Part shown: positions 1 to 13,343 of the stretch, in pieces
How positions within the stretch are numbered: the stretch's first letter is position 1
Layout of the letters: the number at the start of each line of letters is the position of its first letter
Origin: Methylocystis echinoides
GTDB taxonomy: Bacteria; Pseudomonadota; Alphaproteobacteria; Rhizobiales; Beijerinckiaceae
Direction of reading: 5' to 3'
NCBI RefSeq assembly: GCF_027923385.1
Contig: NZ_BSEC01000009.1
Location: 1 to 14,596 of the forward strand
Length of the DNA: 14,596 nucleotides
Made by a program: the position numbers and the translations under genes
Notes under the pieces: model-generated
What the model was told of the DNA's origin: nothing
Seen by the model: only the letters and a program-made list of their open reading frames with translations
The model's database searches: none

Positions 1-260
1 AGGAGGTTTGAGAGGCTTTGTCCCTAGTACGAGAGGACCGGGATGAACGTACCTCTGGTGGAGCTGTTGTCGCGCCAGCGGCAGTGCAGCATAGCTATGT
101 ACGGACGGGATAACCGCTGAAGGCATCTAAGCGGGAAACCCCCCTTAAAACGAGACCTCCCTTGAGGGCCGTGGAAGACGACCACGTCGATAGGCCGGGG
201 GTGCAAGCGCGGCGACGCGTTGAGCCGACCGGTACTAATCGCCCGATTGGCTTGATCGCT
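1..260 (+). rRNA. rrl: 23S ribosomal RNA, 3' end (partial)
   Basis: This is the last ~260 nt of a 23S rRNA gene, cut by the left edge of the window. The sarcin-ricin loop core AGTACGAGAGGACC is at 28-41. The conserved 3' end is visible as GATAGGCCGGGGGTG near 190 and GAGCCGACCGGTACTAAT near 222-239. The end is placed near 260 by comparison with the E. coli 3' end and could be off by several bases. All open frames over this stretch are chance. Confidence 0.96.
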
Positions 261-427
261 CTCGTGATCCGTGTCCGGACTGGTTCGGCAGCCGCAAAGG
301 CTGGCGAAGCCAGAGACACGGTCATAAACAGACCAGCAGCAGACGCTGCCACCAACATGCTTGCCGAACCGGACACACGCGCCTCGCAACCCGCGACGGC
401 CAAGTCCGAAAGAAATTGCGATGCGCC
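261..427 (+). other. 23S-5S internal transcribed spacer with a long-range stem
   Basis: This spacer of about 167 nt separates the 23S and 5S genes. GTGTCCGG plus GGTTCGGCA at 272-291 can pair with TGCCGAACCGGACAC at 362-376, leaving a few unpaired bases on the left arm. That would close a ~105-nt stem-loop in the precursor RNA, plausibly a processing stem that releases pre-5S. Pairing is read directly from the sequence; the processing role is inferred. No tRNA is present in the spacer. Confidence 0.6.
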
Positions 428-546
428 GGTCTGGTGGCCTGAGCGGCGTGCCCAGAACCCGATCCCATCTCGAACTCGGCCGTTAAACACGCCAGCGCCT
501 ATGGTACTGTGTCTCAAGACACGGGAGAGTCGGTCGCCGCCAGACC
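428..546 (+). rRNA. rrf: 5S ribosomal RNA
   Basis: A complete 5S rRNA of ~119 nt. The terminal helix is formed by GGTCTGG at 428-434 and CCAGACC at 540-546. Conserved interior sequence includes CCCGATCCCATCTCGAACTC and GGCCGTTAAAC, followed by GGGAGAGT near 522-530. The ends are set by the terminal pairing. It follows the 23S in normal order. The tRNA-Met that often follows 5S in alphaproteobacterial rrn operons was looked for and not found. Confidence 0.95.
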
Positions 547-893
547 TGCCCATCGCAATACACACACCTTCCCTCGACACGAACACCGATCCGGCCCCCG
601 GACACGGCGCATGCTTACACAGAGCCCGCGCCGGATCTCATCGGTCGCTCCGCCCCCGTGCAAGTTCTCTGAGCCACGTCACCTTCGGTGATGGGCGTTC
701 GATCGGCCGCACGGCCATCCCAATCAGCCGAGAGATGGTGCGCAACCGCGAAGGCGGTTCCCCGCGTCGCGCGAGGGCTGACTGATCCCGGACATCTGCC
801 TGCTCCGAGCCTTTCCCGACCGGTCGTGCCGAACGCCTCGGCCACTCGTCGTTCGCCCGGCACCGACGGCCGCGCTGTGCCGAAGGCGCGGCC
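547..893. other. Intergenic region after the rrn operon, no gene recognised
   Basis: I see no gene, tRNA or clear rRNA terminator in these ~350 nt. A short UUCG hairpin (TCAC/GTGA stem) lies at about 676-688 but lacks a T tract. Open frames on both strands have compositions unlike proteins. The right end merges into the promoter of the truncated sigma gene. Confidence 0.5.
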
Positions 894-922
894 TTGAGGG
901 CTGTACAGCAAACCTCTATTAT
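894..922 (+). promoter_or_regulatory. Sigma-70-type promoter of the truncated sigma factor gene
   Basis: TTGAGG at 894-899 and TATTAT at 917-922 are separated by 17 bp. An overlapping alternative -10 is TATAAT at 920-925. The perfect palindrome GCTGTACAGC sits in the spacer and a second GCTGTACA lies at 929-936 just past the -10, as expected for a repressed promoter. The boxes are visible; activity is inferred. Confidence 0.5.
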
Positions 923-936
923 AATGCTGCTGTACA
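900..936. promoter_or_regulatory. Two CTGTACA operator-like elements (site A)
   Basis: GCTGTACAGC at 900-909 is a perfect 10-bp palindrome and continues as AAAC, giving GCTGTACAGCAAAC. A second copy, GCTGTACA, is at 929-936, 29 bp downstream. They flank the -10 box of the sigma fragment. The same core recurs at 8069-8080 and 9064-9073. The binding protein is unknown; the XRE protein encoded at 8125 is the nearest candidate. Confidence 0.5.
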
Positions 937-968
937 ATGCCTCCGGTCAGTGTGGAATCGAGCATCGC

Positions 969-1430
969 ATGCCGTGCCATCCGGACACGCGCTCACGGTC
1001 GGTCCCCGGTGATAGGGCTGGATCGCCGTCCTTCAGGCCTGATGGCGGACCAGAGTGTCCGCCTGCCGCGTCCGGCCCCGACAAGATCGATCTGCGTCGT
1101 CCGCGCTCAGGGGATCTCAATGCGGCGGCCGATCGGGATCCGGCGTTCGACGCGGACCGTTTCCGGGCAGCCCTCGTGGAGTTGCTGCCCGACCTGAAGC
1201 GATTCGCAAGGTCGATGGCGAAGACGGCCGATCAGGCTGAGGACTTGGTTCAAGAGACGCTGCTCAGGGCTTGGCTGTGTCAGGATCGCTTTCGTCCTCG
1301 TGGCCATCTTCGAGCCTGGACATTCACCATCATGCGGAGCAGCCTCTCGCCCTCCAAGCGTGAGACAGCGGATCCGACGGATGTCGGCAACGCTGCACCC
1401 GACAGGCGACGCATCGATCCTGACCGGTGA
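969..1430 (+). CDS. Truncated EcfG-like ECF sigma factor, region 2 only
   Basis: The predicted 153-aa protein has ~60 residues of low-complexity N-terminus and then a clear sigma region 2 at residues 65-133. Visible motifs are LLPDLKRFARSM, QAEDLVQETLLRAW and RFRPRGHLRAWTFTIMRSSL. This resembles the EcfG (ECF15) general-stress sigma factors of alphaproteobacteria. Region 4, which contacts the -35 element, is missing: the frame stops at 1428-1430 about 20 residues after region 2, and none of the three downstream frames encodes it. The start ATG at 969 is chosen because the TTG at 894 lies in the promoter; its ribosome site is weak. With a good promoter intact, this may be a decaying gene or a retained sigma-2 fragment. 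The full-length relative at 9110 is a possible parent family member. Confidence 0.65.
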   Translation: MPCHPDTRSRSVPGDRAGSPSFRPDGGPECPPAASGPDKIDLRRPRSGDLNAAADRDPAFDADRFRAALVELLPDLKRFARSMAKTADQAEDLVQETLLRAWLCQDRFRPRGHLRAWTFTIMRSSLSPSKRETADPTDVGNAAPDRRRIDPDR

Positions 1431-1662
1431 AACCGCGGAGCGTTCTCGCAGGACGAATGGCGACGGCCACGTCCTCTGACGCGGCGGTGCTGGATGTGGC
1501 GACGCCGATCATCGACGCGCGCGCTCTGCTGCGTGCGTCGAGATATGAACTGCTCTTCGTCAGCTCGAGTGCTTCGCGCTCCCCGGTCGAGTTCAGGGCG
1601 GTCGAGCGCCACCGTCGAGAACTCAGGAGAATGCCTGCCGTTCGCGGATCCTCGGTTTCCCG

Positions 1663-4581
1663 TCAGGAGTGGAGGTCGAAGTGATGGGCGTTGGCGCCGT
1701 GATCTGAAACCCCGATCAGGCCGACGTCTCCGTGGACGCCACTGTCCGCCGGTGCGTGGCTCGGTCCGGCCGGTGAGCCGGGTTTGCTGTCGGACGCGAA
1801 TTCGATGGTGCCGTTCGGGCCGATGCTTGCGGCCGGTCTCGGACCGTGACTGCCCCCGCTCGTCGGGGGACTCGGCTCGCTTGACGGTTCTTGATCGCGG
1901 CTCACGCCGGTCGAGCCTCCCGATCCCTGGCGCGAGAGCGATTGGTCTGACGCCACCGGGGTGCCGACGTTCGCGGCCGCACCGGCAGTGCCGTGACCTG
2001 TGTGGTGCGGGCCCGCGTCGAGGTTCGCGGGATTGGGATCCGCCCCGACGGCTCGATCCTGCGTGCCGCTCGGTGGGATGCCTGCGTTCGCACCGGTTGC
2101 CGGGTTGGAGCCGTCCGAGTTCCGCAGATGCGGATCGGTCTCTCGGGCGTGATCCGCAGGATCGCCGCTGCGGCCGGGCCCGTCGGCGGTCTGAGCATGG
2201 CCTGGATCGTCCGCTCTCACCCCCGCCAGCGCGCTGGCTGACGGAGCGATTGGGTCCGCGTCGGAAGCCGCGCTGTGAACGGCGGAACCCTGTGCGTGCG
2301 GTCCATCGTCTTGGAGGTGCCCGGGCGGCTCGCCGCTTCGATCGTCCTGCCCGTGGCCTGGATCGGCAGCGCGCGCCTGCGCGCCGGCTGACGGCGGACC
2401 TGGGTCCGCGTCGGTGGCCGAGCCGTGACCGCGGCTATCCTGTGCGGGTGGTGCCGTATCGTGAAGATGTCCCGGCGCCTCGGCGCTCCGGCCAGGTGAA
2501 GCGCCGGCCCGCGCGTGACCGGGATCAGCAACATCCGCCTGCGTCTGCGCGCTCGCGGATGGTTGGACCGGATCCGTGTCGGCGGCCGAGCCGTGATGGC
2601 CGGCATCCCGAGCGTGCGGCGCCGTGTCTTGGACATGTTCCGGCGCCACCCCGCTCCGAACCGGTCCCTCGCCAGCCTGCCTGTGATCCGGTTCGGCGGC
2701 TCTGGCCTCGATCTGCAGGTTAGCTGCCGGTGCTGAGGGGGTGGGATCGGTGGCCGCCGTGCCGTGGCTGCCGGCATCCTGTGCGTGCCCTGCCGGGCCC
2801 TGGAGAGGCCCCGGTGCCTCGGCGCTCCGGCTGGGGCTTTCGCCGGCCGGAGCGTGCGCAGCCACCGCGCCGCTCGCCTGCACGGTGGCTGAGGGCGGCG
2901 CTGATTGCGTGCCGGTGTCCGTGCCCTGACCGTCGTTGTCCTGGGCGTGCGGCGCCGAGCCCCGGAGGTGGCCCGGCGCAGCGGCACTCCGGCCGGGACC
3001 TTCGCCGGCCCGCGTCGGGCCTGGATCGGAAGTGCTTGTCTGAGCCTGTGCCAGACCCGGCGGTTCATCCGGACTCGCGCCGCCGGCCACGTCCAGTGGA
3101 ACGGCCGCCGCGTCCTTGTGATGGCCTGGCGCATCGGCGCTCCGGCCAGGCCCGTCGCCATCTTGACCGCGGCCCTGATCGGTGACCTCCCCCCGGATCT
3201 GCGCGAGGCCCGCTGTTGGACGCGGGCTCGGATCGGATGCTGCACTGGGATCGCCGGCCGCGCCGTGCAACTCCCGTTCGGATGCACCTGCGCCGATGCC
3301 TGAAGGATCCGCATGCGCGACCGCGTCGTGCCGCCCCCTTGCCTCCGGCGAGACGCCCGTTCGCGGATCGTTGTCCGGGCTACCGGAGCGCTCCTCGACC
3401 GGGAGCTGCGCGTGTCTCAACTCGGGCTGTGCGGCGGCATTGAGCCCGTTGACCGGGGCTGGCGGAGCTTCCGATGCCGCGTGACCGGTCGTCGGGGTCA
3501 CGCTCTGGGCCAGCGATGGCGCCTCACCGGTCGCGCTCGACGACGGGGCTCCCTGTTCCCGTACCGCGGCGTCCCCAGATGGCGCGGCGCCACCGTCCGA
3601 TCTGGAATCCGGAGACGACGATGAACCCGCTGCGAGGGCTGCGCTGGCCTCGGCGCCGCGCGCGAGCGGCTGAAATCCGGATTCCGCGCCTGCCCGGGTC
3701 GGCCCATGGCCGAGGGCCGGGTCTCTGAGGCCGATGAGTCCGAAATCGGCGGCGTCAGATCGGGCGGAAGCGACCGCCGCCGACTCGGCCGTTACGAGAC
3801 CGGCCGCGCCGCTCGCGGGACCTTCGTGGCGGCCGGTGCCGAGCGGTCCTTCCGACTGGACGGGGCTCGCCGCTCCACCCGTCGTCGGCGACAGGCTGCC
3901 CTGGTCACCCGGGACAGCGCTGCTGGCACCCCGCGCGCCGAGGTATGATGTCGCCTCGATACCCTGAGCGGGGTGGTCGACGAGGGCATCCGCGGCGAAG
4001 ACCATGGCCGAGAACACGATCAGCCCGACCTGCTTACGGTGGCCGTCGCGCTCATCGGTATCGCCCGTGTCGCGCGCTTCGGACGACCCGTGCTGTTGCG
4101 CGTGGCCCGCGTGAGGAGGCTGCGCCGCGCTCTCGGTCGATCGCTCCCCGTCATCCGCGCGGGCGTCGTCGGGCGACAGGCTCAGGGCCGCAGCCGCGAC
4201 GAGAGCCGCGAGCAGCGCCGCCGGGTGAACCGAGAGCTTCGTCCCGCGGGCATCCTGCGGGATCGGGAGAAGCTCGGGATAGCGTCGGGCGATCTCGTTG
4301 ATGAGGGCGCGGAAATCGCTGCCTCGCATCGGGCTGTCCAAGACATCGGACGCGATGACGTAGCTGCCGTCGATCCTGGCGAAATGCATGACGGCGTCGC
4401 CATCCGGCCGGCAGAAGACGAACCAGGGGTCCGCCTCGTCGCTCAGGCCCTGCTCGCTGCCGATCTGCAGGCCGGCTCGGATCAGGGCGGCCTCGAGGCG
4501 GTAGAATTCCGCGAGCTCCTGCTGCGACCAGCCGCCCTGGCACGTCGTTGCGGGTCGGAAGAACGAGATGACCGCGCCCAT
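1663..4581 (-). CDS. T1SS-linked repeat protein, 972 aa, Ala/Gly/Pro/Asp/His-rich
   Basis: This is the third gene of the secretion operon and starts 38 nt after hlyD; GAGG six bases before the ATG supports the start. Residues ~14-110 form a compact, normal-composition domain with motifs WSQQELAEFYRLEAALIRAG, DPWFVFCRPDGD and HFARIDGSYVIASD. I believe this domain recurs next to type I exporters in Hyphomicrobiales, but I cannot name it. Hydrophobic segments follow at 117-136 and 184-201. Residues 202-972 are low complexity, with about seven degenerate 51-57-residue repeats at ~455-845. The motif DxGLIGxxD appears twice (279-287 and 952-960), flanking the repeats. There are no RTX nonapeptides. 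The C-terminus ends HHFDLHS. Position suggests it is the exporter's substrate or a surface or adaptor protein; the N-terminal domain and membrane segments are odd for a simple substrate. Function is unknown. Confidence 0.75.
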   Translation of the reverse strand: MGAVISFFRPATTCQGGWSQQELAEFYRLEAALIRAGLQIGSEQGLSDEADPWFVFCRPDGDAVMHFARIDGSYVIASDVLDSPMRGSDFRALINEIARRYPELLPIPQDARGTKLSVHPAALLAALVAAAALSLSPDDARADDGERSTESAAQPPHAGHAQQHGSSEARDTGDTDERDGHRKQVGLIVFSAMVFAADALVDHPAQGIEATSYLGARGASSAVPGDQGSLSPTTGGAASPVQSEGPLGTGRHEGPASGAAGLVTAESAAVASARSDAADFGLIGLRDPALGHGPTRAGAESGFQPLARGAEASAALAAGSSSSPDSRSDGGAAPSGDAAVREQGAPSSSATGEAPSLAQSVTPTTGHAASEAPPAPVNGLNAAAQPELRHAQLPVEERSGSPDNDPRTGVSPEARGRHDAVAHADPSGIGAGASERELHGAAGDPSAASDPSPRPTAGLAQIRGEVTDQGRGQDGDGPGRSADAPGHHKDAAAVPLDVAGGASPDEPPGLAQAQTSTSDPGPTRAGEGPGRSAAAPGHLRGSAPHAQDNDGQGTDTGTQSAPPSATVQASGAVAAHAPAGESPSRSAEAPGPLQGPAGHAQDAGSHGTAATDPTPSAPAANLQIEARAAEPDHRQAGEGPVRSGVAPEHVQDTAPHARDAGHHGSAADTDPVQPSASAQTQADVADPGHARAGASPGRSAEAPGHLHDTAPPAQDSRGHGSATDADPGPPSAGAQARAADPGHGQDDRSGEPPGHLQDDGPHAQGSAVHSAASDADPIAPSASALAGVRADDPGHAQTADGPGRSGDPADHARETDPHLRNSDGSNPATGANAGIPPSGTQDRAVGADPNPANLDAGPHHTGHGTAGAAANVGTPVASDQSLSRQGSGGSTGVSRDQEPSSEPSPPTSGGSHGPRPAASIGPNGTIEFASDSKPGSPAGPSHAPADSGVHGDVGLIGVSDHGANAHHFDLHS
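2059..3216 (-). repeat. Tandem degenerate repeats inside the T1SS-linked protein
   Basis: Residues ~455-841 of the 972-aa protein repeat a pattern close to GPGRSAEAPGHLQDTAPHAQ, followed by GxHGSAxDxDPxxPSAxAQ and then DPGHARAG. Anchors of the GPGRS type are at residues 477, 528, 582, 639, 695 and 801, with a degenerate copy near 747. Spacing is 51-57 residues (about 153-171 bp). The units diverge at the base level, so this is old duplication or selected variation, not a fresh slippage array. It is not a CRISPR: the units are coding and contiguous. Confidence 0.7.
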
Positions 4582-4619
4582 CGGGACCTCACGTCCGCAC
4601 AGTGACTGAGAAGCGGACT

Positions 4620-5984
4620 CTATCGTTCATGGAAACTGCGTCCCAGAGCATCGAAGAACGGCGCCACCAGATAGTCGAGCGCCGTGCGCTCGCCGGCCGA
4701 GACGACGACCTCGGCGGGCAGGCCCGCCAGGAGGCGTGGTCGTACGTCGTCCGGGAGTTGATGGTCGTCGATCTCCACGGTGCCGGCGAAATAGGCCTGC
4801 TTGGTGCCGTCGTCGATCAGGCGGTCGCGGGAGACCATCGTCAACGTCCCGAAGATCGCCGACATGCGGCGCGTCTGAAAAGCCGGGAACTTCACCTCGG
4901 CCCGCATGCCGGCATGAACCGCCTCGAGATCGTTCGGCGCGAACTGCACGCTGATCACGAGCCTGTCGTTCGTCGGAACGATCTCCATCAGCGGCTCGCC
5001 CGAGCGGACCACCTGGCCGATCGTGTAAACCTTCAATCCCTGGATGACGCCCTGATGCGACGCCCGGACCTCGTGCCGACGGAGGACATCCCGGGCCACG
5101 ATGAGCTTCTCGCGCAGTTCTGCGATCTTCTGGCGCGTGTCGAGGAGCTGCGCGGTCAGCGATTCCTGCAGCTTCTGCTTGAGCTGCGCGGTCTGCATCC
5201 CCGCCTCGTTGATGCCGTTCTGCGCCTTGGCGGTCTCCGCCACGGACCGTCCGATCACGCCTCGGAGGCGCGCGTGCTCGCGCTCCATCATCAGAACGCG
5301 CGAGAGTGGGATGAGGTTCTTCTCCTGGAGGCCGCGCAGGCCCTCCAGCTCCTGCTGGATCAGGGCGACCTGCTGCTCGCCCGAGGCCTTCTCGACCGCC
5401 AGCCCGGAAATCTCCGTCTTCAGCTGCGTGACCCGCGCCTCGATGAGGCCGAGCTGCGCCTGGAAGGACGCGCGGCGCTCCGACAGCTGGCTGGCCTGGT
5501 CGTCGATCAGGCCGGCGACGGCCGGCTCGGCGCGTCGCTCCGCGATCTCCGGCGGCAGGAGCAGATCCTGCGCCTGGCCCTGCTCCGCGCGGAGGCGCGC
5601 TTCGAGAATCAGGGCCCCGTCGAGCTGGCCGCGGAGCAGATCGTTGCTGGCTCGCGATTGCACGGGATCGATGCGTAGCAGGACGTCGCCCGCGCGAACC
5701 GCCTGGCCGTCCCGGACCAGCACCTCCTGGACGATGCCGCCTTCGAGGTGCTGCACCACTTTGCGGCTGCCTTCCGCGACCACCACCCCGGGACTGATGA
5801 CTGCCCGGTCGAGGCGCGCGACGGCGGCCCAGGTGCCGACTACCCCGAACGTCGCGACGATGAGCGCGTAGCCGGCGACGGCGTACGCGCGCCAGTTCGT
5901 CAGGTCGGCGGAGCCCGACCGGTCCCGATCGGACCTTCTTCGCACGGGGGACGGGCTCGGGATCGCGGCGCGCGTGACGGTCAT
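4620..5984 (-). CDS. HlyD/PrtE-family type I secretion membrane fusion protein
   Basis: This 454-aa periplasmic adaptor would join the inner-membrane ABC exporter to an outer-membrane TolC-type channel. A short cytosolic N-terminus is followed by one membrane segment at ~33-55. The biotinyl-lipoyl-like half motif follows (VVQHLEGGIVQEVLVRDGQAV, about 77-97, then AGDVLLRIDP). A long coiled coil covers ~110-320 and includes DTRQKIAELREKL. The second lipoyl half, VRASHQGVIQGLKVYTIGQV, and the beta-barrel region complete the fold. The C-terminus, LGRSFHER, resembles the FRE-type end of HlyD proteins. Its ATG lies 3 nt after the exporter stop codon, so the two are almost certainly co-translated. 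No TolC gene is in the window; these are commonly encoded elsewhere. Confidence 0.95.
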   Translation of the reverse strand: MTVTRAAIPSPSPVRRRSDRDRSGSADLTNWRAYAVAGYALIVATFGVVGTWAAVARLDRAVISPGVVVAEGSRKVVQHLEGGIVQEVLVRDGQAVRAGDVLLRIDPVQSRASNDLLRGQLDGALILEARLRAEQGQAQDLLLPPEIAERRAEPAVAGLIDDQASQLSERRASFQAQLGLIEARVTQLKTEISGLAVEKASGEQQVALIQQELEGLRGLQEKNLIPLSRVLMMEREHARLRGVIGRSVAETAKAQNGINEAGMQTAQLKQKLQESLTAQLLDTRQKIAELREKLIVARDVLRRHEVRASHQGVIQGLKVYTIGQVVRSGEPLMEIVPTNDRLVISVQFAPNDLEAVHAGMRAEVKFPAFQTRRMSAIFGTLTMVSRDRLIDDGTKQAYFAGTVEIDDHQLPDDVRPRLLAGLPAEVVVSAGERTALDYLVAPFFDALGRSFHER

Positions 5985-5987
5985 CGC

Positions 5988-7751
5988 TTATCCCGCGCTC
6001 CGCTGTTCGTCGGAGCCGCGGCGGGTCTGGGATGCCGCGGGGCCGACGGGCGGCACCAGGGTCGGGACCGGCCGCTGGCCGGTGACGTGGGCGAGGACCT
6101 GCTCGGGCGTACCGGAGAGCTGCACGCGGCCCTCGCTCATGAGCAGGATACGGTCGGCCTCCTCCAGCAGGCTCACCTTGTGGGTCACCAACACCACCGT
6201 CGCCCCGGATCGCTTCAGGTCCGCGACGGCGCGCATCAGCGCCGCCTCGCCGGGCTGGTCGAGACTCGCATTGGGCTCGTCGAGCACGACCAGGCTCGGC
6301 TCGCCGTAGAGCGCGCGGGCCAGAGCGATGCGCTGCCGCTGACCGCCTGACAGCCCGTTTCCCCCCCGCCCGATCACCGTATTGTAGCCCTCCGGAAGCG
6401 ACTGGATCAGCGCGTGACAGCCAGCCCGCTGGGCAACCTCGATGACGCGCGCGTCGTCCCGGTCGGCGAAGCGCGCGATGTTCTGCGCGACGGTCCCATC
6501 GAACAGCTCGACGTCTTGAGACAGGTAACCGACATGCTGCCCGAGCAGGGCCCTGTCCCAGTGGTTCAGGTCGGACCCGTCGATGCGCACCGTGCCTGCC
6601 AGCAAGGGCCAGACCCCGGTGAGCGCGCGAACGAGCGTCGATTTGCCGGCGGCACTCGGGCCGATGATCCCCACGACGCTGCCGGGCTCGAGCCGGACGC
6701 TCACAGCCTTGAGGATGGGGCGCGTCGCGCCGGGGGCCGCCACCGAGATGTCTTCGGCCTCGATCAGGCCGCGCGGCCGCGGCAGGACGAGGCGGCGCGT
6801 CTCCGAGCCTGCGACCGCCACGAGATCGGCCAATCGCCGATAGCTGGCCCGCGCCGCCGTGAAGCCCTTCCAGTTGCCGACGACGGCCTCGATCGGCGCG
6901 AGGGTGCGGCCGATGATGATGGACGCGGCGATCATCGACCCGGCCGAGATCTCGCGGTGAATCGCCAGATACGCGCCGATGCCCAGCACCAGGGTCTGCA
7001 GCAGCATGCGGACGAACTTCGTGGCCGCGACGATCAGGCCCGCGCGATCGCTGGCCCGCGCCTGGAGGAGCAGGACGTCGTCGTGGCGGCGCCCCCAGAG
7101 CCCGCGCATGGACGCGACCATGCCCATGGCCTGCAGCACCTCCCCATTCCGAAAGACCGTGGCGGCGCTCTGCCCCGCTTCGCGCGAGGCCTGACTGGCG
7201 GCGTCGAGCGTCCGACGGGTGGCGACCTCGTTGAGCAGCGTGAGGCCGAGGATCGTGCCGCCGCCCACCAGCGCCATCCAGCCGAACCAGGGATGGAGGA
7301 TGAAGCAGGCGAGCAGGAAGATCGGTATCCAGGGCAGATCGCAGAACGCCAGCATGCCGGCGCCGGTCAGGAACTCCCGCAGGACGTCCACGTCGCGCAG
7401 CGCCGTATCGTGCTGCGCGCCGGGCCTGAGCAAGGTGCCGCGATGGGCGGCATCGAAGATCGGCGTGGCGATTTTCTGATCGAACACCACACCGCCGCGC
7501 ACCAGGAGGCGGGCGCGCAGCATCTCCAGCATCGCGTAGACGGCCAGGCCGAACGCCGCGATCAGCGTGATCCCCGCCAGGGTCGTATCACTCCGGCTGG
7601 GGATCACGCGGTCGTAGATCTGGAGCATGTAGAGCGGGCTGACGAACAGCAGCAGATTGATGAAGAGCCCGAACACCACGGCGGTCGCCAGGACCGGCCG
7701 GAGCGAGCGCAGGCCGATGGTCAATGCCGATTGCAGCGAAGGATCGCCCAT
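5988..7751 (-). CDS. PrtD-type type I secretion ABC transporter (permease/ATPase)
   Basis: A 587-aa fused membrane and ATPase half-transporter of the PrtD/HlyB class, the engine of a type I secretion system. The membrane domain (residues ~18-300) has hydrophobic segments near 20-45, 58-78, 139-175 and 245-290. The ATPase has Walker A GPSAAGKST at 364-372, Q-loop Q412, signature LSGGQ at 467-471, Walker B LVVLDEP at 487-493 and the switch histidine H524. There is no C39 peptidase domain at the N-terminus, which fits substrates with a C-terminal signal. The start at 7751 is chosen for its GGAAGAGGG ribosome site and normal PrtD length; an in-frame TTG at 7940 would add 63 residues of atypical sequence. 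First gene of the operon with hlyD and the repeat protein. Confidence 0.95.
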   Translation of the reverse strand: MGDPSLQSALTIGLRSLRPVLATAVVFGLFINLLLFVSPLYMLQIYDRVIPSRSDTTLAGITLIAAFGLAVYAMLEMLRARLLVRGGVVFDQKIATPIFDAAHRGTLLRPGAQHDTALRDVDVLREFLTGAGMLAFCDLPWIPIFLLACFILHPWFGWMALVGGGTILGLTLLNEVATRRTLDAASQASREAGQSAATVFRNGEVLQAMGMVASMRGLWGRRHDDVLLLQARASDRAGLIVAATKFVRMLLQTLVLGIGAYLAIHREISAGSMIAASIIIGRTLAPIEAVVGNWKGFTAARASYRRLADLVAVAGSETRRLVLPRPRGLIEAEDISVAAPGATRPILKAVSVRLEPGSVVGIIGPSAAGKSTLVRALTGVWPLLAGTVRIDGSDLNHWDRALLGQHVGYLSQDVELFDGTVAQNIARFADRDDARVIEVAQRAGCHALIQSLPEGYNTVIGRGGNGLSGGQRQRIALARALYGEPSLVVLDEPNASLDQPGEAALMRAVADLKRSGATVVLVTHKVSLLEEADRILLMSEGRVQLSGTPEQVLAHVTGQRPVPTLVPPVGPAASQTRRGSDEQRSAG

Positions 7752-7955
7752 TCTGCCCTCTTCCTGCGATCGATCGGCACGATCGGCGATACCCGGTGGC
7801 TCAAATTCCCGTGCTGCTCGCGTCAGTGACCCGCGGGCGCTCAGATCCGCGAGCGGCAATCGTACGTGCGATACTCGACTTTCATGGGCCGCTATCCAGA
7901 GACATGCACCGGTAGTGGGGCATCCGGCGCCATTCTCCAAATCGTTCCTTACAGG

Positions 7956-7983
7956 ATGATAGCGCTATTCAGGTAGTTGCCAA
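7956..7983 (-). promoter_or_regulatory. Candidate promoter of the T1SS operon
   Basis: On the minus strand TTGGCA (7983-7978) and TATCAT (7961-7956) are separated by 16 bp, a good sigma-70 arrangement. Transcription would start near 7949 and leave a leader of about 200 nt before the exporter start. Activity is inferred from the boxes only. Confidence 0.45.
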
Positions 7984-7988
7984 GCAAC
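7976..7988. promoter_or_regulatory. Palindrome overlapping the -35 box of the T1SS promoter
   Basis: GTTGC-CAA-GCAAC is a perfect 5-bp inverted repeat with a 3-bp centre. It covers the -35 hexamer of the candidate T1SS promoter, a common operator position. It differs from the CTGTACAG elements, so it may bind a different factor. Confidence 0.4.
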
Positions 7989-8036
7989 GGGATCCGTTCG
8001 GGGAGGACGCGGGGACGACGGGTGCCGCCGCGCATC

Positions 8037-8066
8037 TGGACAGCGCGGCTCCGTCCCAGCTATATG
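8037..8066 (+). promoter_or_regulatory. Candidate promoter of the XRE regulator gene
   Basis: TGGACA at 8037-8042 and TATATG at 8061-8066 are separated by 18 bp. The operator-like GTTTGCTGTATA begins 2 bp after the -10. An alternative -10, TATAAG at 8077-8082, overlaps that element but has no convincing -35. Confidence 0.35.
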
Positions 8067-8068
8067 GT

Positions 8069-8080
8069 GTTTGCTGTATA
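8069..8080. promoter_or_regulatory. Operator-like element GTTTGCTGTATA (site B)
   Basis: This 12-mer differs by one base from GTTTGCTGTACA, the reverse complement of the element at 901-912. It lies between the -10 box and start of the XRE gene, in the divergent region shared with the T1SS operon. Autoregulation by the XRE protein would fit. Confidence 0.45.
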
Positions 8081-8124
8081 AGCGCCGCGCCGCGTGGCTT
8101 CGGTCGGCAGGAAGGTGAAACCCC

Positions 8125-8451
8125 GTGTATGCCCATCAGCAACGCCTGGACTCCGAGGAGGTGCTGGAGCTGCGTCGGGAGGGGGGACGGTATCTGAAGG
8201 AACTGCGGGAGGCGCGCGGCCTGTCGCAACGACAGCTCGCAGCTCTTGTCGGTGCGGATTACTACACCTTCATCTCGCAGCTGGAGACCGGGCGCGGTCG
8301 TATTCCTCCGGATCGGTACCGCGCGTGGGCCGAGGCGCTGGCGATCGAGCCGAGAGCGTTCGTCCGGAACGTGATGCGCTTCTACGACCCGATCACCCAC
8401 GAGATCCTGTTCGGCGATCGGAGCGCGGAGCCTGAGGGCAACGAGGCGTAG
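8125..8451 (+). CDS. XRE-family helix-turn-helix transcriptional regulator
   Basis: A 108-aa DNA-binding protein. The HTH domain spans residues ~22-76 with motifs LKELREARGLSQRQLAALVG, FISQLETGRGRIPPDRYRAW and ALAIEPRAFV. A C-terminal tail (NVMRFYDPITHEILFGD) follows; I recall this tail from a Hyphomicrobiales family but cannot name it. It starts with GTG, supported by AAGGTGA a few bases upstream. The out-of-frame ATG at 8129 is not used. It is divergent from the T1SS operon, with ~370 nt between the two starts, and is the nearest regulator to three copies of a shared operator-like element. Control of the secretion operon and the two sigma genes is inferred from position only. Confidence 0.88.
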   Translation: MYAHQQRLDSEEVLELRREGGRYLKELREARGLSQRQLAALVGADYYTFISQLETGRGRIPPDRYRAWAEALAIEPRAFVRNVMRFYDPITHEILFGDRSAEPEGNEA

Positions 8452-8536
8452 GCCGTCGACGCTCTCAGGGCCCGGATCGTTCGGATGCGCGAGGCGCGCG
8501 GGACGGCTCCAGCCTGGAGACGACCGCCCGCGCAGC

Positions 8537-8791
8537 TCAGGAGGTGGAGTGGTCCGCACCGTCCACCGTCTGTGATCCGAGGGGTGATGGGTCGTCAGAC
8601 GTCACGTCGGCGGCCGATACGGGCGCGCCGATCGCCGCCATCAGCATTCGCAATCCCTCGATCCACGTATCGGCCTCGGCCCGCGAGATGCACCCGCTGC
8701 GGCGAAAGATTTTGCCGGACTCGAGCTTGACAACAACGTCGAAGAGGCCGTCCGGCCTGTCCGTGATCCAGTATTCGACATTCTGAGGCAT
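8537..8791 (-). CDS. Small conserved protein of unknown function
   Basis: An 84-aa protein with a normal-composition core, NVEYWITDRPDGLFDVVVKL then ESGKIFRRSG and EADTWIEGLRMLMAA, followed by a polar tail. I associate this type with hypothetical proteins of Methylobacterium, from memory. No catalytic motif or membrane segment is visible. The ATG at 8791 is preferred over the GTG at 8896, whose extra 35 residues are Arg/Ala-rich and have no well-placed ribosome site; the ATG's own site (GAGGA about 15 nt upstream) is also poor. It is convergent with the XRE gene and divergent from the sigma factor gene. Function unknown. Confidence 0.65.
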   Translation of the reverse strand: MPQNVEYWITDRPDGLFDVVVKLESGKIFRRSGCISRAEADTWIEGLRMLMAAIGAPVSAADVTSDDPSPLGSQTVDGADHSTS

Positions 8792-9063
8792 CGACGCTGC
8801 CCAATAGATCCTCACTTGGCCGGCAACAGCCGCCCCGCCCACGCAGCTCGCAGTCTGACGGCGAACGCGCGCCTCTCGCCGACGTGACTCGTTCACCTCG
8901 ATCCGTTGTTCCTCGCTCGGCCTCAGACCACGTCGGGGTTCACCTGCGCGCGCGATGATCTTCGGCTCCTTCTCGGTTCAACATGTCCGCCCCCCAGGGA
9001 CGGAAGCGTGCCCCAACGCGTAGGCCGCGGAGAACGATCCGCCGCTTGCGGGGTTAGATGTTC

Positions 9064-9073
9064 ACTGTACAGT
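9064..9073. promoter_or_regulatory. Palindrome ACTGTACAGT (site C)
   Basis: A perfect 10-bp palindrome 36 bp upstream of the NepR-sigma fusion start. With its left flank it reads GTTCACTGTACAG, two mismatches from GTTTGCTGTACAG as found at the truncated sigma gene. A possible -10, TTAGAT, is at 9054-9059; no convincing -35 accompanies it. Confidence 0.45.
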
Positions 9074-9109
9074 CAGGTGGCGGGTCCTATTTGGAGGGGT
9101 GGACGCTCG

Positions 9110-9919
9110 ATGACGCGCGTGGTCGGGCCACTCCCGCCGGATGGCCCGCTGCAGATCGCCGGTTCGTCAGGCGGGATTCACGGCGGCCCGAGATCGGTTC
9201 GTGCGGCGAGCGCTTTGAGAGGACGTGAGTTGACGGACACGCTGGTTGCTCAAGACGGCGGAGTCGATCGGCCGAGCCGACAGGACCCTCCGGAACCCGC
9301 GATTCTGCCCACCGGTGTGCGGGATCATCTCGGCCTGCAGCTGCGCGCCGCCTACGAGGCCGTGACACGGGCACAGACACCGCCGCGTCTGCTGGACCTC
9401 GTCGCGCGGCTCGATGCAGCGCTGGAGGGGCCGCGCCAGGACGATGCCACTGCGTTTCGCGAGGGCCTGACCGAAACGCTGCCCGGCCTGCGCGCCTTCG
9501 CCCTCTCGCTCGTCGGCGATGCCTCGCGCGCCGACGATCTGGTCCAGGAGACTGTGCTCCGAGCCTGGGCGCGCCAGGACCTGTTCATCCCAGGTTCGAA
9601 CCTGAAGGCGTGGCTCTGCACCATCCTGCGCAACCAGTTCTACACCGAGTGCCGCAAGCGAAAGCGCGAGATCGAGGACGTGAACGGTGCCGCCGCGGCG
9701 CAGCTCACGGCGCCCGCAGCCCAGGAGCACGGGTCCGATCTGCAGATCGTCTGGTCCCATATCGGCAAGCTGCCGGAACTGCAGCGTGAGGCCCTGCTCC
9801 TCGTGGGGGCCCAAGGCCTGACCTACGAGGCTGCCGCGGAGGTGATGGGCTGTCAGACCGGGACCGTGAAGAGCCGGGTGAGCCGCGCCCGGGCCTTGCT
9901 CGTCGCGCATCTCGCCTGA
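9110..9919 (+). CDS. EcfG-type sigma factor with an N-terminal NepR-like anti-sigma segment
   Basis: A 269-aa protein, about 80-90 residues longer than usual EcfG. Residues ~67-107 read as a NepR segment: HLGLQLRAAYEAVTR, then PPRLLDLVARLD. This matches the family pattern LGxxLRxxYxxV...PxRfxxLLxxL(D/E) as I remember it. Sigma region 2 is at 118-180 (LPGLRAFALSLVGDASRADD, LVQETVLRAWARQ, LKAWLCTILRNQFYTE). Region 4 is at ~212-267 (LPELQREALLLVGAQGLTYE, GTVKSRVSRARAL). In most alphaproteobacteria nepR and ecfG are separate genes, NepR binds EcfG, and phosphorylated PhyR removes it. Here both lie in one frame with a ~10-residue linker. The ATG at 9110 has GGAGGGG ten bases upstream; a TTG at 9230 is possible and would still include NepR. 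Sigma assignment is firm; the NepR call is a motif match. Confidence 0.85.
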   Translation: MTRVVGPLPPDGPLQIAGSSGGIHGGPRSVRAASALRGRELTDTLVAQDGGVDRPSRQDPPEPAILPTGVRDHLGLQLRAAYEAVTRAQTPPRLLDLVARLDAALEGPRQDDATAFREGLTETLPGLRAFALSLVGDASRADDLVQETVLRAWARQDLFIPGSNLKAWLCTILRNQFYTECRKRKREIEDVNGAAAAQLTAPAAQEHGSDLQIVWSHIGKLPELQREALLLVGAQGLTYEAAAEVMGCQTGTVKSRVSRARALLVAHLA

Positions 9920-10590
9920 GACGGGCATCCTGACCGAGAGCGGATTTTCCACGCTCGACGGCCCCTGCATGGTTGAGACAGGTGCCCATCCGCGCTCCGC
10001 CCTGGGGCGAGTCCCGACGGGCGACGACCTGGGAACGGTCCCCCGCCGTCCTGGCCGGTGTCGAACCTCGACGGCTCGACCATCCTTGTCGGACGGATAG
10101 CCCGGGCAGAGAGACGAGGTGAGGCGCGCGACACGCTCGAAGGCCGGGGAAAGGCCAGGCGCAGGCCGGCAAAGCCGTCTCGGCCCCTATCGCGACCGCG
10201 AAACCGCCGCGGGACGCCCTGCCCCATCGCGCTTCAAGTCGCACGAGCGTGTCGCGAGCAGCGACTGCACCACGCGGCCGCCATCGTCGATGGACACCGC
10301 CGTCAGCCCGCGCTTCGGCAAGGTTCGGGCCCGTCCCGGTCGCTGCCGCCGCAGCAGGCCGCTCGTCCCGGTCCGAGCCAGAGATCATCCCCGGGCACCT
10401 CGACGGACGCTCCGCCTCCACGCGCCGCCCGTGTCGCACGAAGGTCGGCCGTGGCGTCACCGATCATTGGCAGCGCCGCGTCTGGCATCCTCGCCGCGGA
10501 GACTCTCGACGCGGTCTCCGGTGCCGCTGCGGAACAGGTCGCCCTTAACAAACTCACCCATCCCCGTACGAATCCGGGTCGCCGCTGGAC
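9920..10590. other. Intergenic region, no gene recognised
   Basis: About 670 nt follow the sigma factor with no gene I can support. Several long open frames cover it on both strands, but their translations are Arg/Pro/Ala-rich with no motif, as expected by chance at this GC content. It may hold an unseen RNA or the decayed remains of a gene. Confidence 0.4.
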
Positions 10591-10638
10591 TCACTTTGCA
10601 GAATCGGTCCACATGAACAGTCACGTTGGCAGAATCGG
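10591..10638 (+). repeat. Direct repeat upstream of the ribbon-helix-helix gene
   Basis: TCACTTTGCAGAATCGG at 10591-10607 and TCACGTTGGCAGAATCGG at 10621-10638 share TCAC and an identical GCAGAATCGG, about 31 bp (three helical turns) apart. The second copy ends 10 bp before the ATG of a ribbon-helix-helix protein. Such proteins often bind direct repeats in their own promoters, so this is a candidate operator. Confidence 0.5.
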
Positions 10639-10648
10639 GCGGGGACCG

Positions 10649-10873
10649 ATGACCGCAGAGGAACGGCTGGCTGAGCTGAAGGCGGCGGACACGCGCCGTC
10701 AGACACGTCGCAGGGAGGCTCTGAAGCAGAAGGGCATGACCCAGCAGAACGTGTGGCTGAAGCCGTCGGTCAAGGCCGTCATCGACCAGGCGATCCAGAA
10801 CGGTCGGTTCAGGAGCCGTACCGAGGCGATCGAGTGGGCGCTCGCGTCTGCCTTCGAGGAGAAGTCGGCATGA
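10649..10873 (+). CDS. Small ribbon-helix-helix (Arc/CopG-like) DNA-binding protein
   Basis: A 74-aa basic protein. The N-terminal half is charged and helical (EERLAELKAADTRRQTRRRE). The C-terminal half fits a ribbon-helix-helix fold: strand QNVWLKP at 33-39, helix A SVKAVIDQAIQN, and helix B SRTEAIEWALASAF at 56-69. The ATG at 10649 is preferred over the in-frame ATG at 10613 because the second direct repeat lies between them; neither has a strong ribosome site. A terminator follows 17 nt after the stop, so it is probably its own transcript. Position just before repC suggests a role in plasmid copy control or partition, but it could be the orphan antitoxin of a lost toxin-antitoxin pair. Confidence 0.7.
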   Translation: MTAEERLAELKAADTRRQTRRREALKQKGMTQQNVWLKPSVKAVIDQAIQNGRFRSRTEAIEWALASAFEEKSA

Positions 10874-10890
10874 TGTAACGGGCAAAGCAG

Positions 10891-10920
10891 AAGGCCCCGA
10901 GGCGGGAACCTCGAGGCCTT
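10891..10920 (+). terminator. Rho-independent-type terminator after the ribbon-helix-helix gene
   Basis: AAGGCC-C-CGAGG pairs with CCTCG-A-GGCCTT around a 6-nt loop, with one mismatch in an 11-bp stem. It is followed by only a short T run, so termination may be partial. It separates the small gene from the repC leader. Confidence 0.7.
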
Positions 10921-11002
10921 TGGACCTGACATACCCTGGGATGGGGCGCGACAGGCGATTCGCACCCCCTTTATGCCCCCTCCCCCAGGCCGTCGTCAAG
11001 AA

Positions 11003-11016
11003 CACCCTTCGGGGTG
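11003..11016. terminator. CACCC-TTCG-GGGTG hairpin in the repC leader
   Basis: A perfect 5-bp stem closed by a TTCG loop. Read on the minus strand it is followed by TTCTTG, which would make it a weak terminator for an RNA antisense to the repC leader. In repABC plasmids a small antisense RNA in this position controls repC. The hairpin is seen; the antisense RNA is inferred, and I could not identify its promoter. Confidence 0.4.
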
Positions 11017-11030
11017 AACGGTCCCGCTTT

Positions 11031-11047
11031 GCCTCCTGAGAGGAGGC
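11031..11047 (+). promoter_or_regulatory. Hairpin sequestering the repC ribosome binding site
   Basis: GCCTCCT (11031-11037) and AGGAGGC (11041-11047) form a perfect 7-bp stem with a GAG loop. The right arm contains the whole Shine-Dalgarno AGGAGG, eight bases before the GTG start of repC. In the folded state ribosome access would be blocked. Masking of the repC ribosome site by leader structure is a known theme in repABC plasmids. Confidence 0.65.
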
Positions 11048-11054
11048 GGACGAG

Positions 11055-12185
11055 GTGGAGACAGTTCATTCCGGTGGCCGGCCGCTCACGCGCGCCGCGC
11101 TCGCCGGCCGGAGACGTGCGCTCGAAGACGGGCGGACGGTCTCGCGCAGGGAGCTCTCGGCCGCGGGCCGGGACGCGGCCAAGGCCCTGAACCTGCGCCC
11201 TGCCCTGCGTTCGATCCTCTCGGCGCTCTGCGCCGTGTGGGGTGAGCAGGATTGGGAACGCCTGGTGGTGTGGCCCTCGAACGAGCACCTGTGCGGGATG
11301 ACCGGGCTGTCGGAGCGCGCGCTCCGCTACGGCCTGCGCGACCTCGTGGCCTTGGAGGTCATCACACCTCGGGACAGCGCGAACGGCAAGCGTTTCGCCA
11401 TCCGCGGGCCGGGCGGCGCCGTCATCGACGCGTACGGTTTCGACCTGACTCCCATCGTCGCCCGGAAGGGAGAATGGGCGACCGCGATCATGGAAGCCAC
11501 CGCGAGGGACGCTCAGCGAAGCCGCGCGTTCGATCTCCTGACCGTTCGTCGCCGCGCAGTGTCGGAGGCCCTCGCTGCCCTGCGCGCCCGCTTCCCGGCG
11601 ACGGATGCTGCCGATCTGCTCGCGGCGCAGGAGGCCCTCGAGCGCAGCACGCCGAGGAGACGCGCTTCTGGCGTGGGCCCTGACGTCGTCCTCGACGCCT
11701 GGGGAGAACTGCAAGTCATGGCGGAGGATCGTTTCTATCAAGCCGCCTCTGCCGGCAATTCCGGCCGTCACTTAGAACAAGACACCGGATCTCCTACCGA
11801 TCCTTGTGCAAGGGCTCCCGAGAAGGAGCCTGAGCCGACCCGTAGGCCCGAACCGTCACTCGTCGCGGCTGCTTGCCCTGTCGCTGCCGAATTCGGCGTC
11901 ACCCTCAGAAGGGAAGCGGATGTCATCGAGATCGGCCGGCTGATGCGGGGCGGGATCGGCGCGCATCCGTCGGCCTGGAGCGAGGCTTGCGAAGCCCTCG
12001 GTCCATTCCGGGCCTCGGTGCTCGTGCTGATCGTCGCGCAGCTCCACGACGACGACGTGCGCCGGGGTGAGATCCGCATCAAGAACCCAGGCGGCTACTT
12101 CAGGCAGCTCGTCCGCCTGTGTTCCGAAGGTCGCTACGGGCTCGAAGCCGAGCTCATGGCGATGCGCAGGAGGAAGATGACGTGA
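11055..12185 (+). CDS. repC: RepC-like plasmid replication initiator
   Basis: A 376-aa protein matching RepC, the initiator of repABC replicons (usually ~400 aa). The N-terminal winged-helix region shows LNLRPALRSILSALCAVWG, VVWPSNEHLCGMTGLSERAL, PRDSANGKRFAIRG and AYGFDLTPIVAR. The C-terminal region shows HPSAWSEACEALG and IKNPGGYFRQLVRLCSEGRY. The start is a GTG eight bases after AGGAGG. In known family members the origin lies inside repC; the less GC-rich stretch at ~11720-11810 is where I would look. Unusually, no repA or repB partition genes precede it: a ribbon-helix-helix gene is there instead. It may be a repC-only replicon, a module within a larger replicon, or a chromosomal remnant. 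Confidence 0.88.
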   Translation: METVHSGGRPLTRAALAGRRRALEDGRTVSRRELSAAGRDAAKALNLRPALRSILSALCAVWGEQDWERLVVWPSNEHLCGMTGLSERALRYGLRDLVALEVITPRDSANGKRFAIRGPGGAVIDAYGFDLTPIVARKGEWATAIMEATARDAQRSRAFDLLTVRRRAVSEALAALRARFPATDAADLLAAQEALERSTPRRRASGVGPDVVLDAWGELQVMAEDRFYQAASAGNSGRHLEQDTGSPTDPCARAPEKEPEPTRRPEPSLVAAACPVAAEFGVTLRREADVIEIGRLMRGGIGAHPSAWSEACEALGPFRASVLVLIVAQLHDDDVRRGEIRIKNPGGYFRQLVRLCSEGRYGLEAELMAMRRRKMT

Positions 12186-12343
12186 CCTCGGGCGAACGTC
12201 ACCCGCCCCGGACCGCCAAGCCCTGCAGATGCGCCACGCCGCGGCAGCGAATCCGGGCACCCGGATCCTGACCGATGTAGGTAGCCTCCGGATCCCGGAA
12301 CTCACGCTACGCTTGCGCGGCCATTGAACATGGGAGGCTTGCG

Positions 12344-12520
12344 GTGAAGGTGTTTCAGATCCGGCACGAGGTGACGGGCGCCATCCTCTGGACGGGCTCG
12401 GCGCCTGACCCGCTCGCTGCCCTCGACGCCATGGCGCACGAGGCGGGGTATTACGATCATTCCGACATCCCCGACCATCTCCGGGCCGGTGGACTCGCCA
12501 TCGAGGAGATCCGGGTCTAG
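12344..12520 (+). CDS. 58-aa conserved hypothetical protein
   Basis: A short frame with GTG start and GGGAGG six bases upstream. It translates as MKVFQIRHEVTGAILWTGSA, then PDPLAALDAMAHEAGYYDH and a short end IEEIRV. Composition is that of a real folded protein (beta strand, Trp-Thr-Gly turn, Ala-rich helix), unlike neighbouring chance frames. I associate this pattern with small Methylobacterium proteins, but know no function. It sits between repC and the response regulator on the same strand; gaps of 158 and 237 nt argue against tight coupling. Confidence 0.7.
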   Translation: MKVFQIRHEVTGAILWTGSAPDPLAALDAMAHEAGYYDHSDIPDHLRAGGLAIEEIRV

Positions 12521-12757
12521 CGCGCCGACAACCACGCGAAGAGGCCGATCCCTGCGGGCGCCGGGCACGCTGCGGTCATCGAGGCGCCTGCAGTGCCGTT
12601 CCGCCAGGAGGCCGGGCAGGTACCGCGGCACCCGGCACTCTCGGTGCGAGGGGTTCGGCGCGTGATCGCCCCGAACCCGGTCCCCATCGGACAGGTTTGT
12701 GTGGGACGCAATCGGGATCAACTGCGTTACTGCGGCGACGAAGTGTGGAGATCCAGG

Positions 12758-13162
12758 ATGGCAGACGCCGTCGCGTCGCAACGCGCTGTTCTGATTGTCG
12801 AGGACAATCCCGTGCAGCTCATGGATGCGGCTGCGGCCCTTCGCGACGCGGGATACGAAGTCGCGGAGGCCGCCACTGTCGAAGCCGCCCAGGCTCATCT
12901 GGCGGCCCGTCCCGAACTTGTGGCCATGGTCGCGGACGTGGACTTGGCAGGCGAGCCCTTGAGTGGCTTCACCCTGGCCAAAGCCGTCGCGGCGCGCTGG
13001 CCCGAACTGGCGATCCTGATCGTGTCGGGTGTGGCTTGGCCGGCCGAGGAGCAGATGCCGATGGGCGCTCGCTACCTGCGCAAACCGTTCACACCGGAGG
13101 AGCTGGCCGGCGCGCTGGGGGCTGTGCTGGCGGCGCGGGGCGTAGGGTCCGTGCCGCATTGA
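12758..13162 (+). CDS. Single-domain CheY-like response regulator
   Basis: A 134-aa receiver domain with no output domain. Acidic pocket residues E15-D16 (VLIVEDN), phospho-acceptor most likely D60 in VADVDLAG, switch serine S90 in LIVSG and the conserved lysine K109 in YLRKPF are all present, so it should be phosphorylated. The ATG at 12758 has GGAG seven bases upstream; an in-frame ATG at 12593 would add 55 residues of atypical sequence. No histidine kinase is nearby, so its partner lies elsewhere. It lacks the FATGUY signature of receivers tied to the general stress response. A long hairpin follows the stop codon. Confidence 0.93.
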   Translation: MADAVASQRAVLIVEDNPVQLMDAAAALRDAGYEVAEAATVEAAQAHLAARPELVAMVADVDLAGEPLSGFTLAKAVAARWPELAILIVSGVAWPAEEQMPMGARYLRKPFTPEELAGALGAVLAARGVGSVPH

Positions 13163-13172
13163 CGGTGGCCAG

Positions 13173-13217
13173 CCCAGCGTGCGCCGGCGCGGGAAATCCG
13201 CGCCGGCGCACGCTGGG
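13173..13217. terminator. Perfect 20-bp inverted repeat, likely bidirectional terminator
   Basis: A 20-bp arm at 13173-13192 is exactly complementary to 13198-13217 around the 5-nt loop GAAAT. It starts 10 nt after the response regulator stop and ends 17 nt before the stop of the converging truncated gene. No T tract follows on either side, so the terminator role rests on position and stem strength. Confidence 0.65.
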
Positions 13218-13234
13218 ACGCATCACGGCGAGGT

Positions 13235-13343
13235 TCAGGTCCCACTGTCGCCGGCGCTGGCATCGTCGCTACCATCGAGCAGCCAGTCCGGTATCCCGGG
13301 AAGCACTTCCCTGGCGACCTCACCGGCGGTCTTCAGTGCCCGC
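13235..13343 (-). pseudogene. C-terminal remnant of a gene interrupted by the IS element
   Basis: The minus strand reads ALKTAGEVAREVLPGIPDWL, then LDGSDDASAGDSGT and a TGA stop (13237-13235). This looks like the C-terminus of a genuine helical protein with an acidic tail, not a chance frame. The frame begins exactly at the end of the IS256-type element. Family unknown; the N-terminal part should lie beyond the other end of the element, outside the window. Confidence 0.5.

Follow-up and report, generated by a model that had tools for sequence, protein, structure and literature searches.

A NepR-like segment fused in frame to an EcfG-type sigma factor on a plasmid-type Methylobacterium contig

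The window, i.e., the whole stretch of DNA analysed here, is the entire contig C9 (14,596 bases). It carries a gene in which a NepR-like segment is followed by an EcfG-type sigma factor in the same reading frame (Table 1). NepR inhibits EcfG and is titrated by phosphorylated PhyR (PhyR-P), and the EcfG (ECF15) sigma factors act at promoters of the GGAAC-N16,17-CGTT type. A second EcfG-like sequence was found at 1113-1445; it is reduced to sigma region 2, its match is interrupted by a stop, and it corresponds to a 71-aa 'sigma factor' in the annotation of a Methylobacterium oryzae plasmid. No NepR match was obtained in the ORF scanned there. On the minus strand (1663-7940), genes for a type I secretion permease/ATPase and an HlyD adaptor adjoin that of a 972-aa low-complexity protein, which is possibly their exported substrate; the M. 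oryzae plasmid has the same gene order. Slightly downstream of the fused gene lies a repC-type replication gene (11055-12185), which is followed by repA and repB on pMRAD01 of M. radiotolerans; these two are unannotated at that place in the M. oryzae copy. A single-domain response regulator (Response_reg, 44.6 bits) is encoded at 12593-13162.

For the origin of the contig, bases 1-13343 matched the M. oryzae plasmid NZ_CP090350.1 at one place, in three pieces, with 98.1% identity, and the window ends in an IS256-family element of which M. radiotolerans plasmids have 100% identical copies. In the same assembly, bases 1-8160 of contig C8 are 99.1% identical to NZ_CP090350.1 (first 20,000 of 46,561 bases compared), and contig C10 matches Methylobacterium insertion sequences. 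The only 16S rRNA detected in the assembly shares 98.5% identity with one of Methylosinus sp. C49. Based on these Methylobacterium-matching contigs and the Methylosinus-like 16S rRNA, contig C9 is by its sequence Methylobacterium DNA, which entered a Methylosinus-like assembly either as a contaminant or by transfer.

Table 1. Positions of the fused gene, its domains and its upstream elements in the window
Feature	Position	Strand	Remarks
Sigma-EcfG-type promoter-like pair, GAAC-N16-GGTT	9032..9055	+	Published consensus (PMC4814048)
Conserved 18-base element GTTAGATGTTCACTGTAC, begins in the -10-like GTT	9053..9070	+	Conserved upstream of fused genes
In-frame stretch upstream of TTG, from ATG 9110	9110..9229	+	Probably untranslated leader; open frame, low conservation
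Fused nepR-ecfG gene, 229 aa	9230..9919	+	Most likely start TTG 9230; orthologue WP_026605354.1 (M. oryzae plasmid)
NepR-like segment with two helices, at about residues 28-47 and 52-66 (229-aa numbering)	9311..9427	+	PF18557 at 9320-9421; AlphaFold2 helices 28-46 and 52-64; conserved island
Linker between NepR segment and sigma region 2	9428..9448	+	Sequence variable, length nearly fixed
Sigma region 2, EcfG type	9449..9679	+	
Sigma region 4, -35 binding	9734..9916	+	

The frame at 9110-9919 is open, with 269 codons ahead of the stop. A sequence-only reading had taken this whole frame as the gene, with NepR preceding sigma; the open frame and the domain order stood, while the start probably lies elsewhere. 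In the M. oryzae plasmid orthologue, which is 99.6% identical at the protein level, the annotated start is a TTG that matches position 9230 of the window. An upstream alignment of relatives (without L050, L052, and L084-L087) revealed that a ribosome-binding-like stretch before this start and the codon itself are conserved in many of them. Positions 9110-9229 are poorly conserved, and the M. radiotolerans counterpart of ATG 9110 lies in a different frame. ATG 9110 was set aside in favor of TTG 9230 because of the M. oryzae annotation and the conserved ribosome-binding-like stretch. The fused protein thus probably starts at TTG 9230, with ATG 9110 as a possible alternative. Given the annotated start, the conserved TTG context, and the poor conservation of 9110-9229, the numbering of the 229-aa form is used below unless stated otherwise; it places the NepR segment at residues 28-66.

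In a profile scan of the 269-aa frame, NepR (PF18557) matched residues 72-104 (22.9 bits, E 6.6e-5), where the sequence-only reading had recognized a NepR motif at residues ~67-107. The match is followed in the same frame by Sigma70_r2 (55.8 bits), Sigma70_r4_2 (51.8 bits), and PhyR_sigma2 (42.1 bits), such that the proposed in-frame fusion of a NepR-like segment to an EcfG-type sigma factor is borne out. By sequence, the nearest PDB entry to the EcfG-type sigma regions 2 and 4 is 5uxx (E 9.5e-64, with a profile of the 58-sequence alignment described below). The NepR of PF18557 is a small free-standing protein, which the window segment, in a continuous frame with the sigma domains, is not. In the full-length context, the PF18557 score was 22.9 to 23.8 bits, slightly below the curated cut-off of 25.7. 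This shortfall, together with the M. radiotolerans annotation, in which the protein starts at a GTG within the NepR segment, could be taken to mean that the match arose by chance or from a mis-set start and that the true protein begins downstream of the segment. We regard this as very improbable. The excised segment (9296-9463) scored 27.5 bits (E 2.4e-6) and the whole-genome scan gave 27.2 bits at 9320-9421, both above the cut-off, and published protein work exists on such extensions (PMC4814048).

The conservation of the segment argues in the same direction. We compared two alignments, one of the window protein with 57 proteins (58 rows) and the other with 110 (111 rows), which were picked for spread and not at random from 120 and 326 homologues listed. 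At E<=0.1, PF18557 was matched by 53 of the 58 members, including the window protein, and by 88 of the 111 in the wider set. Among the 58 sequences, the two NepR helices form a conserved island, with column entropies that average 1.36 and 1.13 bits, compared with 2.29 in the leader, 2.50 in the linker, and ~0.7 in the sigma domains; the values on either side of the linker are 1.13 and 0.73. The mean gap fraction over the two helices is 0.02 and 0.00, with at most 0.07 at residues 28-29. The relatives therefore contain the segment; conserved homologues that start after residue 110 of the 269-aa frame, which would have counted against the fusion, are not what the alignment holds, and the NepR profile search that had been proposed for residues 60-110 did return a match. 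The linker, estimated earlier at ~10 residues, measures exactly 10 residues from position 65 (the end of the NepR core) to F76 (the first sigma2 helix) in 89/111 aligned sequences. On these grounds the NepR-EcfG fusion is confirmed as real and conserved.

Individual positions of the segment differ between groups. L34, G35, L38, Y42, and P51 are retained in 77-80 of the 80 Methylobacterium-type and in all 31 Microvirga-type sequences (a conservative replacement at position 34 or 42 was not scored as a loss). In the Microvirga-type sequences, position 55 is changed in 31/31 and position 61 in 24/31 (L61 is kept in 7/31). In pairwise comparisons with M. radiotolerans and M. sp. UNC378MF, dN/dS is ~0.40 and ~0.25, respectively, for the NepR segment, 0.19 and 0.25 for the leader, and 0.09 and 0.16 for sigma region 2, such that dN/dS fails to single out the NepR segment from the leader; with 39 and 27 codons, the segment and leader values are rough.

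The sequence-only reading had further considered the fusion an undescribed architecture. This claim falls because the same architecture was reported for Methylorubrum extorquens AM1, in which six sigma-EcfG proteins have a NepR-like N-terminal extension of ~55 residues (Francez-Charlot et al., 2016; PMC4814048). According to that article, the extension is absent in Alphaproteobacteria outside Methylobacteriaceae, may derive from an ancient fusion of nepR with ecfG, "as noted before" (citing an earlier paper, its reference 4), and has a role stated as not known (PMC4814048). The window gene adds a plasmid-borne member to these described fusions of Methylobacteriaceae. Some fusions are already named 'NepR family anti-sigma factor' by NCBI (e.g., P0031, P0032, and P0071).

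Methylobacterium had been suggested as the place to look for the architecture, and such fusions are indeed encoded by all 15 Methylobacterium-type genomes examined, which were reached via Methylobacterium and Methylorubrum loci, with four to nine per genome. These counts are from the 96 strongest matches (E<=8e-50; weaker matches, which we took for fragments or for ECF sigma factors of other kinds, were omitted), which comprise 80 fusions in one open frame, 10 sigma-only genes, and six genes with an internal stop. Each of the 15 genomes also has one separate NepR match (52 to 64 bits; frame length, 79 to 193 aa), which is the top match of its genome. All but one of the 10 sigma-only genes, spread over nine genomes (G039-G044 and G051-G053), have a NepR match 54-117 bases upstream, in another frame and always with the same offset, which indicates that these genomes have nepR-ecfG pairs of the conventional kind in addition to the fusions.

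In two wider searches, the counts are lower bounds since only the best matches were listed, with at most 24 candidates per genome scored in the family and at most seven in the class. An uninterrupted fusion is present in at least nine of 119 genomes from the same GTDB family (G039, G061, G085, G102, G123, G127, G136, G152, and G161), four of which were read directly. Among 385 genomes of the class, an uninterrupted fusion was found only in G039 and G061 among the matches listed. A plasmid protein of Microvirga ossetica has the same domain order with a weak NepR match (14.1 bits, below the cut-off). Several candidates were rejected, namely, G208 and G317 in the class-wide set, which have no NepR segment when read by eye; G013 from the genus of the assembly, which has two overlapping ORFs in different frames; two Rhizobium plasmid matches, with no NepR core in the frames read; and Microvirga lotononidis, in which the NepR match reaches 23.2 bits but the frame stops ahead of any sigma domain. 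A more divergent NepR-EcfG fusion with a PERIRKLLEELR motif was observed in the same family (L151, G127:C129), and this perhaps represents a separate fusion event.

The unfused arrangement can be seen within the assembly itself. On chromosome C1, a PhyR-like gene (named by eye) is divergent from a nepR and an ecfG gene (L001), with the nepR stop and the ecfG start overlapping. In G003, from the genus of the assembly, the match crosses two TGA codons and looks like nepR followed by ecfG as two genes. This canonical operon has the same modules in the same order as the fusion, but its NepR and EcfG are two proteins, whereas the window gene is one reading frame. The fusion could have arisen simply, by loss of a stop or a change of frame in an operon of this kind.

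Upstream of the fused gene, the element GTTAGATGTTCACTGTAC at 9053-9070 is the sole match in the window with at most three mismatches (0 expected). With at most two mismatches, 15 copies were found in 12 of the 15 Methylobacterium-type genomes, and the reversed sequence used as a control had no copies in the same genomes. Each of the 15 copies directly precedes, in the same orientation, a fused nepR-ecfG gene from the high-scoring clade (>=352 bits; coordinates compared). Within this clade the element precedes 15 of 18 genes and is absent from three (G041:C17, G043:C124, and G044:C12). At a near-fixed distance ahead of it is a box of the form GGAAC, GGATC, or a variant, which reads AGAAC in the window. 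The strict core TTCACTGTAC is present upstream in 14/18 aligned relatives; the other four (L038, L042, L049, and L083) lack it or have a diverged form. The core TGTTCACTGTACA is an imperfect palindrome, and thus an operator is possible.

The published sigma-EcfG promoter consensus is GAAC-N16,17-C/GGTT, and no such promoter was found before the AM1 ecfG genes (PMC4814048). This pattern has six matches in the window, including the one at 9032, compared with a mean of 0.87 and a maximum of five in mononucleotide shuffles. With six matches the pattern alone is weak, and the promoter-like pair at 9032 rests on its conservation in relatives. The stricter GGAAC-N16-18-SGTT has no matches in the window. 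Among the papers listed for TTCACTGTAC as a promoter sequence, none concerns Methylobacterium by its title. The clade-specific, promoter-like element GTTAGATGTTCACTGTAC upstream of fused genes may be new, and we consider it a modest lead. It provides a handle on whether these accessory sigma factors are autoregulated, in contrast to the inference drawn for M. extorquens AM1 (PMC4814048).

As to what the NepR segment does, we tentatively favor, at somewhat less than an even chance, the view that the window gene encodes, on a plasmid, an accessory sigma factor of the general stress response whose NepR module folds back as a cis latch and partly inhibits it. The module would fold onto the sigma domains and cover the surface used by free NepR or by core RNA polymerase, such that the sigma factor would be both partly self-inhibited and shielded from free NepR. 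The latch might be eased by a competitor such as PhyR-P, or simply by RNA polymerase. Given the conserved upstream sigma-EcfG-type promoter element, from which expression would probably be driven, the gene may be subject to autoregulation or to control by the stress response. The window segment itself would inhibit EcfG and be titrated by PhyR-P.

The published binding results fit such a latch. In vitro, NepR was bound by EcfG1 only without the extension, and in two-hybrid assays NepR was bound only by the truncated forms of EcfG1 and EcfG5, the former strongly and the latter weakly (PMC4814048). That NepR is bound only by truncated EcfG1 makes cis occupancy of the NepR site plausible, although it is no proof, and the nearly fixed spacing between NepR segment and sigma region 2 also fits cis occupancy. 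We further count in favor of the latch the separate NepR of each of the 15 Methylobacterium-type genomes, the profile match, the helices conserved amid variable flanks, the signature residues, dN/dS, and the promoter-like element. Counted against it are the changed positions 55 and 61 in the Microvirga-type sequences, the failure of dN/dS to set the segment apart from the leader, and the arrangement of the sigma regions in the structure models described below.

The same binding results could be read as the work of a shield, i.e., an extension that mainly makes an accessory sigma factor blind to free NepR, with its activity constitutive or set by level and without switching. This reading gains from EcfG2, which has the extension and was judged apparently constitutively active, and from EcfG3, which is controlled at the protein level (PMC4814048). 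We nevertheless find it rather unlikely, since EcfG1 bears the extension yet is under NepR control in vivo (PMC4814048), and the retained NepR signature residues suggest more than a passive plug. Both EcfG1 isoforms complemented the sextuple mutant and pulled down NepR in vivo (PMC4814048). Together with the apparent constitutive activity of EcfG2, the function of both isoforms suggests that the extension is no tight lock in every member.

It is also conceivable that the segment acts in trans, by binding PhyR as a competitor of NepR in a feedback or by bridging to the sigma domains of further EcfG molecules. In M. extorquens, PhyR is bound by two NepR homologues for which no EcfG partner was found (PMC4814048), so NepR folds can be PhyR-only, and the NepR signature is retained in most of the 111 aligned fusions. 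The near-constant spacing to sigma region 2 (89/111), however, hints at a cis geometry, and we judge action in trans to be improbable. If the cis latch is real, inhibition would be intramolecular and one-to-one, as the sequence-only reading proposed, in place of a partner switch of three proteins, and this would help to explain how many EcfG paralogues in Methylobacterium coexist with few free NepR proteins. A fuller scheme seems quite doubtful to us: the fusion clade would be a self-contained switch, held off by the cis latch and released by PhyR-P, with the sigma factor transcribing its own gene from a dedicated promoter of the form GGAWC-N17 to 19-GTTAGATGTTCACTGTAC, which in the genomes searched precedes genes of this clade only.

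Two AlphaFold2 models, from the alignments of 58 and 111 rows, were confident for sigma regions 2 and 4, with pTM of only 0.45 and 0.50. Compared with the NepR-bound EcfG of 5uxx, they differ by 18-19 A over the whole chain and by 1 to 3 A over single domains. Neither model reproduced the NepR-bound arrangement, and sigma regions 2 and 4 were placed otherwise than in 5uxx. With such low pTM (<=0.5) and the whole-chain misfit, the models neither support nor refute cis occupancy, and docking of the NepR helices gains no support from them. Foldseek and VIA-align gave no NepR chain among the matches listed, which mostly span the sigma part and barely cover the NepR helices. A coupling analysis (111 sequences, effective number 72) was apparently dominated by the phylogenetic signal of the split between Methylobacterium and Microvirga.

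Among known systems, EcfG1 to EcfG6 of AM1 (PMC4814048) are close to the window protein in design, all being ECF15/EcfG proteins with a NepR-like extension of ~55 residues, encoded as several paralogues per genome and away from the phyR locus (no phyR was seen beside the window gene); the window protein differs in being a plasmid paralogue and in having a sigma-EcfG-type promoter pattern upstream of its gene. The EcfG-NepR complex of Bartonella quintana (PDB 5uxx) is intermolecular and without fusion; its sigma part is 46-53% identical to the window protein, and its NepR chain aligns weakly with the fused segment (13.4 bits, E 0.81). Sigma and anti-sigma functions on one chain also occur in IutY and ECF36, neither of which involves NepR. 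In IutY, the anti-sigma part is membrane-bound, lies on the C-terminal side, and is freed by proteolysis, whereas ECF36 has an N-terminal extension with transmembrane helices and a DUF2275 domain.
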